DNA from: Auricularia sp. M13 | Taxonomy: Eukaryota; Basidiomycota; Agaricomycetes; Auriculariales; Auriculariaceae | Reading direction: 5' to 3' | NCBI GenBank assembly: GCA_037042915.1 | Contig: CM073193.1 | Coordinates: 6,324,001-6,388,000 of the forward strand | Length of the DNA: 64,000 nucleotides | Shown here: one piece after another, positions 8,747 to 32,939 of the stretch | Position numbering within the stretch: the first letter of the stretch is position 1 | Layout of the letters: each line of letters opens with the position of its first letter | The notes under the pieces: model-generated | Seen by the model: only the letters and a program-made list of their open reading frames with translations | Databases searched by the model: none | Told to the model about the DNA's origin: nothing | Made by a program: the position numbers and the translations under genes

Positions 8747-11700
8747 ATGTCAGGACGCGGACGCGGACAACAAAGAGGCGGCCGTGGAGGTCGTGGGGCA
8801 CCCGATGCAGGCCGCGGTCGCGGGGCGGGAGCCGGTGGCCGCGATACACCTGTCAGTCGCTCCTCAGATACTGGTGCGCACGGTGGCTTCGACAATCGCG
8901 GTGCAGCACGCGGCGGCGCAGGACCTGGACGCGGCGGCGGCGGCGGATTTCCTCGCGGTGGCGGTATGCCTCGCGGAGGTGCCCCTCGGGGACGCGGCGG
9001 TGGAACGTTTGGGAACGTCCCAAACATCTACAATCCAACTCCAAACCAACCCGCCACCGTTGACCAACGCGCCCTCGCGCAGGCCGACCAGATTCTGCGC
9101 GATCTACAAGGCAAGCGCACAGGTCCTGAGCGGCCGATTCGCCCCGCGTATGGTAAGGTGAGTATCATAGTTCGCGCTTGCTTTCGTGTATAATCAGCTC
9201 ACTCACATTGTCTTCAAGGCCGGCACCCCAATCGTGCTGCGCGCCAACTTCTTCCCAATCCGGCTGGAGAAAGACAAGTTCTACGAATACAGTATCGAGA
9301 TTAAGCCGGAACCGAAGTCGCAGAAGGCGCGAGTGAGGCGTCGGATCCTGGATCTGTTCGAGAAGGACAGCGCGGGCAGCTCTCTTACGGGTTATATTGC
9401 TCACGACGGCGCTGGAAGGCTCGTATCCGCCCGCCTTCTTCCTCAGCCTCTGTCTGGGACGGTTGCATATTACGAAGCGGGCGACAACAAGGCTGGGCGC
9501 AACCCGGATCATTATGAAGTCACCGTCACCTTCGTGAAGGAGCTATTGACTGCGCCATTGAAGAAGTGTGCCCTCTGCCCTTCCAGAGGTTGAGTTTATG
9601 CTGACTATCTCATAGATATCTCGACGGCGATGTCACCGCTGTGGACGAGGACGCGGAGGTCAAGCCTGTTATATCAGCTCTCAATCTTGTCTTGCAACGC
9701 CAGGCATCGCAGGCAGGGTTTCGCGTCGGCCGCAATAGGTTCTTCTTCAGGGACGAAGAGCAGGGGTCACTCGGACCTGGCCTTGTTGCCTACATGGGCT
9801 TCTATTCGTCGGTTCGCCCTGTCTTCCGCCAACTCATGGTCAACGTCAACGTTTGCATGACTGCATTCCACGAGCCCGGCCTACTCTCAGACGCCATGAT
9901 GGCATTCAGCCGCGGCTCCTTCGGCGGATATCCGCGCGAGTTCATGCTTAAAGTCAAGGTTACGACGCAGCACCTTGGGTACAGGCGCAAGTACACGATC
10001 AAGAGGATCGCGGACGGCGGCACCGCGAACAGCCAGAAATTCAAGTGCGACGAGTACGGCGGTGCCATGATTTCTGTCAAGGATTACTTCCAACGCAGTA
10101 CGTTATTTTCTGCTCGGTATCTTCGCTAAGTTATTGATAACTAATTTCCGGCCATAGAGTATAATATCAGACTTCAGCATCCCGATTTGCCGCTGGTGGA
10201 CGTCGGCTCGAGCAAGCCCACCTATCTCCCTGCAGAAATATGCACCATAGAGCCGGGAGAGCCGCATTTCGGCAAGCTCTCGCCAAACGAGACGCAGAAC
10301 ATGTTGGGCCTTGCAAGTCGTCGACCAGCCGTCAACGCGCATCACATCGTCCAGCAGGGCCTGCAGAAACTTGCTCTCTCCGGTGCCAATACTGCTTCAG
10401 TCCTCAAGGAGTTCGGTGTCGCTGTGTCGGGGGAGATGACGGTCATCCCTGCGCGTCGGCTTCCGCCGCCCCGAATCATGTACTTGCGGGGACCGGCGAA
10501 CGTGAACGAAGGGTCGTGGAACATCGTGGATGTCAAGTTCCACCGCGGTGCCAAGGTCCAGACGTGGCACGTTCTCTACGTCAACGACGAGTCGAAGAGG
10601 ACGCCCGCTTTCAATCCGCCTGTCGACGGCAAGCCCGACGCCAGGCTTCTTTCGTTATTGGACACCTTCCAGCGAAAGTGCAGCTCGAGTGGCATGCAGA
10701 TTCCCAAGTATACCAAGCTTCTCCCGGTCAGGCTTGCACCCCAGTCACAGGCCGACCCGAGGCGAGTGGCAGCCATGGCCGCCATCGAAGCGAGGTTTCG
10801 AGACCTGGTCCAGAGTCCGGCGGCCGCGAAGTCTGTGAGCTTCATCCTCATTCTCCTCCAGCACCGAGACGACTTCATCTACCCCTGCATCAAGCGGCTC
10901 GCCGCTGTCAAGTTCGGCGTTCACACGCAGTGCCTTCAGCTCGAGAAGGCCATGCCCATCAATCGCGCCGACGGCGGCATCGATGTGCGGCGCCAGGACC
11001 AGTATATGAGCAATGTCGCGCTGAAGGTCAACACCAAGCTCGGTGGTATCAACCACAAGCTCGACGCGCCGGCGATGCAATGGCTGACTGGCAAGCGGAC
11101 GATGATGGTCGGCATCGACGTCACCCATCCTGGACCTGGCAGTGTCCCCGGGACGCCTTCCATTGCGGGTGTTGTTGCAAGTGTGGACGCCGACTTCGTT
11201 CAATTTCCCGCGAGCCTACGACTGCAGAAATCCAAGCAGGAGGTGCGCTTTTGGATTGAGTGCGATGCGCAGCGACTAAACCCATGAATGCAGGGCATTG
11301 CTGAACTGGCGGAGATGATGCTCGAACGCTTGGTCGCCTACAGAAATGCAACGAAGTTCCTTCCCGAGCGAGTCCTTGTCTTCCGCGATGGTGTTTCTGA
11401 GGTGTGTCGCGTCAATCAGTTCTTTCACCGTATTATCTTACCGCTTTCTTCTAGGGTCAATACGACAAAGTAATCCGCGAGGAAGTGCCGCAATTTCTCG
11501 TCGCATTCAAGCGTATTGACCCCAAGAACCCTCACTATCGCCCCGCGTTGAGCGTCATCGTATGCGGGAAACGTCATCATGCCCGTTTCCCTGCGACGGC
11601 GGAGCAAGACGCTGACAAGACAGGCAACACGCGCCCCGGCACTGTGGTCGATCGCGGTATCACCTCAGTCGTCGACTTCGACTTCTATCTCCAGGCGCAC

Positions 11701-13986: not shown

Positions 13987-15192
13987 TCAGCATGTGAAAA
14001 CGGCTACAGTACGATGAGCACTCAGGTGATGTGCAAGCTTGAAGATGGGGCTTACATGGTCCTGGGATCGTGTATGTTGTTTGGCCACTGTACAGATTGT
14101 ATGTGCTGAAAGTCTTTGAGGAACGAATGCATGCGGACCACCAACATCACATACATGCCGGGGTCGGATGACTTGTAAGCTACAATGGGAAGACTTGAGC
14201 TGCGACCGGGTGGTACGGTAACTCGTCGCGCACCTCCTGGAATGGATACAGTGGCCGGAGACTTACTTCCTCCTCCAGTTACTTGCAGGTTTCCGCACTC
14301 CATGTAGAGCTGGGCACTAGGGCAGCTTATAAGCCTTCAAAGGCTGACGATAACGGATTAGCGTTGCAGCACATACCCGGGGTAAGAGCTGGCCGCATGC
14401 AGCGCGATGATTTCGCCCTGCAGGTGCGTTTAATCGTGCTGCCATGATCTATATACCTGATCACGTACTCGAATGAGGTACTGACCCGCGGGAATGCAGC
14501 TCGGAATTGTGACCGTGAGCTTGCCGCCGTTAGCGATGAGATCGTCAACGCTTGGAGCATACATCAATCGGCCAGTTCAGACGACTTCCGGTCTGACAGA
14601 ACTTACGCCCATCGGCCGTTGCTGAGACCCGCATGGTAAACCGCAAGAAGAATCAGAACTTCGTCCGCATGTTGGCCAATTTTCTGTGAGACGCACTTTT
14701 GAACCAACCAGACGTAGGCGGTGTACCAGTTGCAGCGTTGGAGACTTTCGCCATGTAGACAAGAAGCGGACCCTTGTGAGAAGCGTCGATCACATCCTCT
14801 GGGCCGCTGGTCAAAGTGTGGCCCCAGCGGAGAGTAATCTTGGAGCCAGCAGCAACAGAGCACACGTTGGTCGAGATAGTGTTGAGATCGTTGGGCGGAC
14901 CGTTGCAGGTCATCGAGGAACTGGTCACATCCGTGATCGGACCATCGTAGCTCTGCGAGAGGATTACCGGTTTACCAGTCAGAATTATGGTCACGCTGAA
15001 ATGCCGACAACCTACAGGAAGCCTGCGGAAATGTGGTTAACTCTAGCCAAGGTGTCAGTGAAAACAAAGGCACACGTACCGAAGACAGTTGTGTAACCCG
15101 AAAGAGGTTCCGTTGGCTGCGTAGAGTTCGTCAAGAATCGTGTGCGCCATGGCTGCCGTTGCCAAGGCGAGGACAGAAAATATGGTCTTCAT
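13987..15192 (-). CDS. AA9 lytic polysaccharide monooxygenase (GH61)
   Basis: Copper enzyme that oxidatively cleaves cellulose or related glucans outside the cell. Ten exons on the minus strand: 15192..15080, 15022..15016, 14952..14697, 14640..14607, 14550..14469, 14417..14377, 14316..14234, 14179..14146, 14105..14056 and 14003..13987, giving about 238 aa with all phases consistent. A 16-residue signal peptide (MKTIFSVLALATAAMA) is followed by HTILDELY, placing His 17 as the copper-binding N-terminus. The second copper His is His 99 in DASHKGP; the axial Tyr is in QLYMEC; the protein ends with the family's TIPGPSVFTC. Exon 2 is only 7 nt (GCTTCCT), yet it restores the typical NCLRLPSYDGPI. 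The third intron (14641..14696) ends in GCGG where the family frame demands the acceptor, so it lacks a canonical AG; see findings. A TATA-like element lies 60 bp upstream. Confidence 0.9.
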
Positions 15193-15258: not shown

Positions 15259-16004
15259 CTTCCAAATCTCGGAGTGTGCGGGGAAACAGCCTGCGGCTCC
15301 TACCACGGCAAGCAATTTGAGACTCATGACGCTCTGCAAGAATGCTATCTCTGACCATATTGGTGTCTTTCGAGGCAAAACATCGGGAGAAGTAAACCGG
15401 TTGCACCGACAAACCCACTTCAGTTGCACGGTGGCCTCAACGGTGCGCGCGTTGCTACATGAGGATCGCGAAGCCGTGCCTAACGAGCCGTCAGCAGATC
15501 GCTGATGCAAGTTTCCGAAATACCCTGCGAGTACTGTGCTGAGAGAGAACATACGGAGCACCTTGACCACTGTTTTGTGACGTGTCGAAGAAGACGGCGT
15601 TACCGACTTCGCGACAATAGTTTGATAGATCGGAGTGGAGTAAATTTCCGCCAGATCAATGCTGAGTTACGATGGCATGTAACGCAAGGAGGAGGTGCTA
15701 GAGAAGCTTTATCGCTACGGCGGGAGCGGGGGATATGTATGCTGTTGAGAGCGATGATTCATTGAGAAATCACCGAAGCCGCAGGATACCAAACAACGAT
15801 TATCAATCTGTCCGTTTGCCCGCGCTCTGGACGTCTGGGAGTCAGGGCACAATCACTGAAGGCAAGTGGATGAGTCATTATCGACAAAGTGAGACTGCGT
15901 AAAAGATTAGTTATCGTGTTACAAATGCAAAGTGAGCACAATAAAAGCGTCCATACCGGATAGAAAGGCTCTTAGTTGCACTTGCAGCCATACATATAAC
16001 TTCC
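15259..16004. other. Intergenic region between divergent genes
   Basis: Upstream region of the AA9 gene (minus) and the NmrA-like gene (plus). No further gene is supported. Confidence 0.5.
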
Positions 16005-16940
16005 ATGACTGCATCGTCCTCTTATCTTGTTACGGGAGCGACTGGAAACCAAGGCGGCTCAGTCGCTCGAGAGCTGCTTGGAGCCGGGCAGCGTGTTCAC
16101 GCTCTTGTGCGCGATCCGACGAAACCTCAGGCGAAAGAGCTACAGTCACTCGGCGCTGTTCTGTTCGTAGGAGACTACGACAACGCGGAGGCTATCAAAC
16201 AGGCGGCCAAGGGCGTCAAGGGCGTCTTCATCCTTCCAATACCCTCGCCTGATCCGGAGGGCGAGGCAACGCAGGTGCGGCGTTGCGTCGATGCGGCGCT
16301 CGCTGCGGGAACGGTCGAGTCTCTGGTCCTCAGTTCCGCAGTCCATGCAGAGAAGCACGCGCAATGGCTCGCGGAGACGCCCGACTATCCGATGAAGCAA
16401 TATTATCACGCAAAGTCATCCGCTGAGGAAGCTGTGCGCACGAGCGGCATCAAGCACTGGACCATCTTTCGGGCGCCGTACCTCGACCAGAATTTTGTAC
16501 TCCCCCACTCCGCTTACCAATACCCGAAGCTGCACTCTGAGCGCAAGCTCACGACGGCCCTCAGACGCGATCTCCCACTCGCACACCTCGACGCGCACGA
16601 TATCGGACGCTGGGCGACCGCCGCGTTTCTGAACCCTACCAAGTTCGCGGGGAAGGCGTTCTTGTTGGCCGCCGAGAATATCACGATGGAGCAAATCGTG
16701 GCCAAGCTCGGCAAGATCGCTGGCGGAGAAATTACGGCCGAGTTCCTCGAGCCCGACGAGCTGGTGAAGGATACGACTAACCCGTTGGCGCCGAGACTGG
16801 CCGCAATCGCCTCGTGGTTCAACAAGGTCGGTTGTGAGATTTCCGACGCGGAACTCGCAGAGCTGAAAAGCTATGGGATCCCCTTGACGTCGTTTGACGA
16901 GTTTTTGGAGAAGAACAAGGACGCCGCATTCGCGGTCTAA
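16005..16940 (+). CDS. NmrA-like/HSCARG-type NAD(P)-binding protein
   Basis: Atypical short-chain dehydrogenase of the NmrA family. Members bind NAD(P) and act as redox sensors or reductases. One exon, 311 aa, unusual in this intron-rich window. The dinucleotide motif VTGATGNQGGSVARELL lies at residues 9-25, followed by VHALVRDPTKPQA and the second strand LGAVLFVGDYDN. Further family marks are GVFILPIP, VESLVLSSAVHAEKHA and WTIFRAPYLDQNF, and the C-terminal substrate-side region GKAFLLAAENITMEQIV. The length is normal for the family. A decayed relative is found at 45529..46411. The physiological substrate cannot be told from sequence. Confidence 0.88.
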   Translation: MTASSSYLVTGATGNQGGSVARELLGAGQRVHALVRDPTKPQAKELQSLGAVLFVGDYDNAEAIKQAAKGVKGVFILPIPSPDPEGEATQVRRCVDAALAAGTVESLVLSSAVHAEKHAQWLAETPDYPMKQYYHAKSSAEEAVRTSGIKHWTIFRAPYLDQNFVLPHSAYQYPKLHSERKLTTALRRDLPLAHLDAHDIGRWATAAFLNPTKFAGKAFLLAAENITMEQIVAKLGKIAGGEITAEFLEPDELVKDTTNPLAPRLAAIASWFNKVGCEISDAELAELKSYGIPLTSFDEFLEKNKDAAFAV

Positions 16941-31711: not shown

Positions 31712-32939
31712 TTACGCGCCGGGGCGTGCCTCCCGCGGTTCTGAAAGTAGACAAGGCCGTCGTCAGCACAGCTAGATAAAAAAAGCAAGTAACCAACAAA
31801 ATGTACGCACGACTCCATTGGCAGTTGAGGATGAGGTTATCGTATCCCATGCCGTGCACCTTCTGCATAGCGCGCTCGGCGACCGCCTTATCCTCGAAGC
31901 TTACGAACGCGTAGCCCTTGCCGACGCCGGTCTCGCGGTCGCGGCCGATGTAGACGCGCGCAACACGGCCGAAGCGCGAGAAGAGGTCGCGCAGGTCGTT
32001 GTCGGACGTGTCCTCAGATACGTTCGTCACGCGCAGCGTCGGCAGGTCGTCGCGGTTTCCGCCTGGGCGGTACATTGACTCGCCCGCCCCGCGCCCTGCG
32101 CCCGCGCGCATCGACGGCGGCACGTACTTGCCACCAAGGCCACCGCCACCGCCAGACGCAGCTGGCGGTCCGCCGGCTGCGAGCGCTGCGTCCGCGACGC
32201 CCTCTTCGCCTTCCACCGGTTCTGGGGTTCATGTGAATACTCTGAGCGGTAATAAAAGCGTGTGCTCGCGTACCTGCGCCTGTAAGGCCACCCAGAGAGT
32301 CCTTGTATGGACATTTTGCGGTGTAATGGTCGCCGTGGCATATGCGGCAGGAGATTTTGGACAATTTCTGGACCTTGGCCTGTTGCTCAGGCTCGGGTTC
32401 CGCAGCCTGGCTCTGCTGTGGAAGGTTAGGGAACACAATAAGATGGCCTGTAACGCCAGTGCACACCTTGTTGCCTGCGGAGAGCTTGAGGGGGACCTCT
32501 TCGCCAATTGTTGTCGTTGCGCGGTCCGGGCCAGGCTTGTTGCCCTTCTCGGCGCCGAACTTTGCCCATTGCTTTCGCTCTGCGACAGTGTGGTTCACAA
32601 TGACCTTCTGCAGCACCCGCTTGATCTTTTTCGTAACCTGACAGAGCTCGTCAGCTGCGGACTTAGTGGCTCTAAGCTGAACGCACCTTGACGGTCTTGC
32701 CCTCGTCGTTCTTGTAATACTCGACAATAGTCCGTACACCGTTTTCGTCGACCGTTTCCACGGGCTTAGGCGGGACTGCGTGCCGTGGTCAGCGCGGAAA
32801 GTCGGTACAAAGTGCTGGGACTCACAGGACTCGTCGTCGTCCTCCACGTCGTCTGCCCAGGATGTTTTAGGAATCCTGAGTGGTAATATAAGCGGGGTAT
32901 CCCGCCAGGCAGCAGTTCAGCGTACGTTTCAGAAGCCAT
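31712..32939 (-). CDS. TIF35: Eukaryotic translation initiation factor 3 subunit G (eIF3g/TIF35)
   Basis: RNA-binding subunit of eIF3, working in scanning and re-initiation in the cytoplasm. Seven exons: 32939..32926, 32875..32826, 32775..32687, 32637..32467, 32415..32274, 32221..31811 and 31740..31712, about 301 aa. The first exon is only 14 nt but gives the family start MASETIPKTSWADDVE. Next come ENGVRTIVEYYKNDEGKTVK, WAKFGAEKGNKPGPD and the zinc-knuckle-like CRICHGDHYTAKCPYKD at about 140-156. The C-terminal half carries GGKYVPPSMR and an RRM with LRVTNVSED (RNP2) and KGYAFVSFED (RNP1). It ends LNCQWSQPREARPGA. The glycine-rich hinge near 185 is normal. Confidence 0.94.

Follow-up and report, generated by a model that had tools for sequence, protein, structure and literature searches.

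The window, a 64,000-nt stretch of DNA from Auricularia sp. M13, carries on its minus strand a gene whose product is predicted to be an AA9 (GH61) lytic polysaccharide monooxygenase (LPMO) performing copper-dependent cellulose cleavage (Table 1). Its N-terminal part matched Pfam family PF03443 with 59.4 bits (cut-off 27.8, E 5.9e-16), which bears out the AA9 assignment made in an earlier note on this DNA. A PF03443 search of the whole genome also hit this place, and the C-terminal piece of the gene product matched AA9 structures. The exons beyond intron 3 encode WAVDDLIANGG, GAQLYMEC (containing the Q-x-Y motif) and PGPSVFTC, and the aligned part stops at 13990.

Other frames in the window also gave matches. 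One for an NmrA-like NAD(P)-binding protein (15945-16937, plus strand) lies opposite in strand to the AA9 gene and shortly upstream of it. The frame at 10145-11284 (plus strand) has matches to Argonaute PAZ, linker 2, Mid and Piwi domains, with Mid below the Pfam cut-off, and an eIF3g frame lies at 32017-32916 (minus strand).

Table 1 Features of the AA9 gene in the window and small exons of two paralogs
Feature	Position	Strand	Description
Exon 1	15080..15192	-	ATG at 15192, 16-residue signal-peptide-like leader, His1, ...HNCL, then CG of an Arg codon
His1 codon	15144-15142	-	Within exon 1
Intron 1	15023..15079	-	57 nt, phase 2, GTACGT...GCAG, CTGAC and TTAAC branch-like motifs
Microexon GCTTCCT	15016..15022	-	7 nt; last base of the Arg22 codon, Leu23, Pro24
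Intron 2	14953..15015	-	63 nt, phase 0, GTAGGT...GCAG, CTGAC branch-like motif
Exon 3	14697..14952	-	SYDGPITDV..., His83 at 14778-14776, ends with WFK plus one base
Intron 3	14641..14696	-	56 nt, GTGCGT...GCGG, no AG at the alignment-required site
Remaining exons	13990..14640	-	Six GT-AG introns of 49-60 nt in between
L052 exon CTCTAT	G000:C2:2315200-2317400, 1434-1439	reverse-complement	6 nt, between introns of 60 and 49 nt
L039 exon	G000:C7:537000-538900, 1142-1156	reverse-complement	15 nt, near Q-x-Y; weak, unproven

The leader and the start of the mature protein read MKTIFSVLALATAAMA|HTIL, with the cleavage site placed by eye and by where the AA9 protein of solved structure 5foh starts. 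The second His, in DASHKGP (His83), and the Q-x-Y in GAQLYMEC are both present. We take the copper ligands to be His1, His83 and the Tyr of QLY.

We use the term microexon for a segment of at most 15 nt that is bounded by AG and GT and restores both the frame and conserved residues, and GCTTCCT is such a segment. Inspection of the sequence reproduced the earlier note's coordinates and intron lengths exactly, as well as its reading of the 7 nt as the last base of an Arg codon followed by Leu and Pro. The note had also placed these residues next to the copper-site region. This does not hold in the sequence, where Leu23 and Pro24 (mature numbering) are neither in nor beside His1, His83 or the QLY Tyr, and the microexon is predicted to encode no copper ligand. 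Joining exon 1, GCTTCCT and exon 3 gives the protein HNCLRLPSYDGPITDVTSSSMTCNG. Skipping GCTTCCT results in a frameshift and an early stop. Intron 2 is divisible by three in length and stop-free, so its retention would add 21 amino acids in frame.

Fit of the 7-nt exon to related proteins

We enumerated GT-AG models with one or two introns of at least 40 nt and found 39 with an open frame into exon 3. Keeping the frame is therefore no proof by itself, and it is the motif that singles out the 7-nt exon. Among the 39 open models, only the GCTTCCT splice pair yields LRLPSYDGPI, as the earlier note had claimed.

A splice-aware protein-to-DNA aligner was written for this purpose and run with the N-terminal halves of AA9 proteins as queries. 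With 5foh, 5tkf and 4d7u alike, the aligner placed introns 1 and 2 with the 7-nt exon GCTTCCT between them, and all three spliced alignments gave a gap-free R-L-P-S-Y-D-G-P-I. With the 7-nt exon spliced in, the protein reads HNCLRLPSYDGPITDV, and 5foh reads IRTPSYDGPITDVTS, with S-to-S identity and a gap at neither junction. These AA9 proteins of solved structure are alike in the N-terminal half, which aligns from His1 to WFK with 54% (5foh), 47% (5tkf) and 44% (4d7u) identity; the comparison is one of protein records. All five aligned sequences share Arg22 and Pro24. When one splice base of the microexon was masked, the best score changed by -13.5 (5foh), -14.5 (5tkf), -11 (4d7u) and -4.5 (paralog L051).

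In a separate comparison, six spliced models were aligned by plain alignment with the first 112 residues of six proteins, namely four of solved structure and the paralogs L051 and L046. The microexon model ranked first against all six proteins, above four open rivals, and its narrowest lead was one point (over a 3-nt exon, rival E, with L051). The exon-skipping model runs into a stop and was left unscored.

As a null, the intron interiors were dinucleotide-shuffled with the outer splice sites kept, in 1000 trials per query. The observed score was reached in 2 (5foh), 0 (5tkf), 4 (4d7u) and 2 (6rs6) of 1000 shuffles, and once per 1000 in a separate run with 5foh. Some exon of at most 15 nt was nevertheless chosen by the aligner in 50-123 of 1000 shuffles per query, and in 157 of 1000 in the separate 5foh run. 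A microexon call is cheap by itself; the fit of GCTTCCT is not. Since exons this short are picked so often in shuffled sequence, homology-based microexon calls need a null of this kind.

Splice signals and competing readings

The PF03443 search of the genome (52 Mb, 14 contigs) gave 47 exon-level matches, which fall into 24 loci including the window gene. Intron statistics were taken from 18 of the 23 other AA9 loci, with the window gene excluded. L043 and L044 were excluded because they nearly duplicate other loci, and L038, L050 and L053 for alignment scores below 270. Two of the loci used, L031 and L032, showed no intron. When introns of 42-130 nt were allowed, the 18 loci yielded 72 GT-AG introns of 46-102 nt, only one of which reaches 100 nt. 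Allowing 35-300 nt gave 78 GT-AG introns, among them one of 39 nt and six of at least 100 nt (121-291 nt); several of these six lie at alignment ends, and some are probably spurious. Two further introns, of 94 and 118 nt with GC donors, were modelled and left out of both counts. The 57 and 63 nt of introns 1 and 2 are thus in the middle of the distribution, whereas a length of 123 or 129 nt is in its tail. The wider range weakens this length argument somewhat and leaves the protein fit untouched.

Splice-site matrices were built from the AA9 introns of 45-75 nt. In this local set, donor 1 scored at the 86th percentile, acceptor 1 at the 88th, acceptor 2 at the 94th and donor 2 (CCT|GTAGGT) at the 12th. 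Both flanking introns contain CTGAC, and a CTRAY motif was found in 23 of the 72 AA9 introns.

The weak donor 2 bears on the reading that intron 2 is not an intron at all, so that 15022-14697 forms one exon with a 21-residue insert, VGCRHFSVTIILTGKPVILSQ, after R-L-P. A gene finder could choose this model, as the 63 nt are stop-free in frame, and the local Pfam score is still 57.4 bits, against 59.4 for the microexon model, since the match simply leaves out its start. However, the insert sits within the conserved motif and lowers the alignment scores by 30-32 points against all six proteins. Acceptor 2 is at the 94th percentile, intron 2 has a CTGAC motif, and a stop-free length divisible by three is ordinary in this family (6 of the 72 other AA9 introns). 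We therefore regard a retained intron 2 as very unlikely.

GCTTCCT could also be intronic, inside a single long intron at 15075-14953 (123 nt) or 15079-14951 (129 nt), with the products CLRYSYDGPI and CLRYDGPI, respectively. Both are GT-AG introns that leave the frame open, the donor at 15075 scores as high as the donor of intron 2, and introns of at least 100 nt may occur in this family (6 of 78 with up to 300 nt allowed, plus the modelled GC-donor intron of 118 nt). Such lengths are a minority, though, and neither product keeps the Pro shared by all five aligned sequences. Their scores were 11-24 points lower for the 123-nt intron and 21-25 points lower for the 129-nt intron, whose acceptor at 14951 is at the 3rd percentile. 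A single long intron is, in our judgement, highly improbable.

After masking of one splice base in GCTTCCT, the best remaining gap-free alignment for three of the four queries used a 3-nt exon, GTT (15011-15009), between introns 15075-15012 and 15008-14953, giving CLRYVSYDGPI. We give this exon almost no credence. It also loses the Pro, the second donor that it requires (GTCGGC) ranks at the 1st percentile, and it scored 10-14 points lower than the 7-nt exon against five of the six proteins and 1 point lower against L051.

Intron 3 appears anomalous. In the family alignment, the required join 14696/14640 produces WFK-IYHAGLSNGRW, and the intron there (GTGCGT...TTGCGG) appears to end in GG. The GT-AG alternatives that the aligner returned are costly: one is a 38-nt intron that leaves six extra residues, and the other, of 71 nt, loses IYHAGL and uses a donor that scores at the 0th percentile. 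Possible causes of the GG end are a non-canonical acceptor, a recent lesion and an error in the assembly. A 15-nt exon at 14621-14607 of the window gene was rejected as a by-product of forbidding both the GG acceptor and introns shorter than 42 nt. The anomaly speaks for the gene being a recent pseudogene or misassembled, with the microexon an ancestral relic out of current use. Against this, the exons are open, and the leader, His1, His83, Q-x-Y and the C-terminal FTC are intact. We consider this reading unlikely. It overlaps with a functional 7-nt exon, as both can hold if the latter is said of the ancestor.

Paralogs and other small exons in the genome

The intron pair that flanks GCTTCCT was found in none of the 18 paralogs, out of 23, with an alignment over this stretch (several of these alignments are weak, and those of L031 and L053 are poor). 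The highest-scoring paralogs, L051 and L052, each carry a single phase-0 intron four codons downstream (YDG|PI). The N-terminal half of the window protein is 54% identical to 5foh and 48% identical to L051. Because it is nearer to 5foh than to L051, it may represent an older lineage that has orthologs in other genomes. The search for relatives gave 10 pattern matches in prokaryotic genome contigs and 56 in viral contigs, none of which was confirmed, and the search of the own genome for a second DNA copy of the window AA9 gene returned only the gene itself.

Some of the other AA9 loci are near copies of each other. Two AA9 genes at the start of contig C9 are copied at the end of C12 with order and strand inverse (pairs L041/L043 and L042/L044, with 92% and 94% identity over about 2 kb), which suggests a duplicated or haplotypic end segment. 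L049 and L050, on C2, lie about 63 kb apart on opposite strands and share stretches of 93-94% identity; in L050 the AA9 alignment covers the C-terminal part only.

The kept loci, with the window gene included, have 66 internal exons, four of them of at most 15 nt: the 7-nt exon and the 15-nt by-product in the window gene, the 6-nt exon of L052 and a 15-nt exon of L039. The L052 model needs CTCTAT to supply the Leu-Tyr of GAQ|LY|MEC, the Q-x-Y motif, and for each of three queries none of 1000 shuffles reached its score. In AA9 enzymes, the Tyr of Q-x-Y occupies the axial position at the copper. Of the two introns around CTCTAT, L051 shares the downstream one in position and lacks the upstream one, so the L052 microexon looks like the product of an intron added beside an old one. 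The L039 exon is a weak candidate: shuffles reached its score in 0 of 1000 cases with L051 as the query and in 345 of 1000 with 5foh.

Proposed splicing and comparison with known microexons

GCTTCCT is very probably a constitutive 7-nt coding exon of the AA9 gene, judging from its sequence context, with each of the flanking introns recognized as an intron unit. Where fungal introns are short, the spliceosome probably pairs splice sites across the intron. With the sites paired in this way (intron definition), two ordinary short introns would each be recognized as a unit and the 7-nt exon itself would need no recognition as an exon. A donor, a branch-like motif and an acceptor are present in each of the flanking introns, which makes constitutive inclusion the simplest reading. 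Removal of both introns would give an mRNA encoding R-L-P-S-Y-D-G-P-I, a normal AA9 sequence about 22 residues past His1. We infer that the transcript is spliced in this manner and that the exon arose when a pair of introns in this intron-dense family ended up with seven bases between them. The weak donor 2, the lack of the same introns in the paralogs aligned over the stretch, the one-point margin with L051 and the GG end of intron 3 are points against the microexon.

A 7-nt exon in an AA9 gene changes no known mechanism. It is easily overlooked, however, and a gene model without it would lose the frame, keep 21 intronic residues or drop the conserved Pro, and such faults would give the wrong protein for expression or modelling. 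Together, the window gene and L052 suggest that gene models of intron-rich fungal AA9 proteins should be checked for exons of at most 15 nt near R-x-P and Q-x-Y. One could speculate further that exons of 6-7 nt with essential residues (R-x-P in the window gene, the Leu-Tyr of Q-x-Y in L052) have formed repeatedly in intron-dense AA9 genes and that incomplete splicing at these exons acts as a switch of LPMO output. We rate the chance of this as very small. If it were true, skipping the 7 nt would cause a frameshift, keeping intron 2 would add 21 residues in the conserved motif, and skipping the 6 nt of L052 would leave an in-frame enzyme without the motif tyrosine.

The terms "lytic polysaccharide monooxygenase" and "microexon" occurred together in none of the open-licence papers searched. 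Among the matches listed there, the titles and the beginnings of the abstracts contained no report of an AA9 microexon. Two genome papers use "microexon" solely for an aligner option, and the portion of PMC4101180 that we consulted gives AA9 counts and no AA9 exon structure. Two splice variants are described for a Gloeophyllum AA9 gene, and these differ at the C-terminal end (PMC5086550). In plants, exons of at most 15 nt are described as widely misannotated (PMC8831610).

GCTTCCT is probably real, and fungal exons this small are already known from P450 genes. In Phanerochaete chrysosporium, nearly one in three P450 genes is reported to contain microexons of 2-10 codons, with a minimum exon size of 6 bp (PMC1184071). 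This is likewise a basidiomycete with small introns and microexons, and the difference is that the genes encode P450s and not AA9 proteins. A regulated 20-nt microexon is described in Trichoderma Xlr2 (PMC11121469). It is also fungal and not a multiple of three in length, and it was absent from the annotated gene model; it differs in that Xlr2 is a transcription factor gene and that inclusion of the exon is regulated by glucose. A further parallel is the 1-nt exon of Fusarium CYP621A, which is reported to be confirmed by SRA reads and present in 20 orthologs (PMC12940212). Like GCTTCCT, this exon is not a multiple of three, joins phases inside a conserved motif and was inferred from homology, and in both cases a model without the exon makes the region resemble one over-long intron. 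CYP621A differs in being an ascomycete P450 gene whose exon has support from reads.
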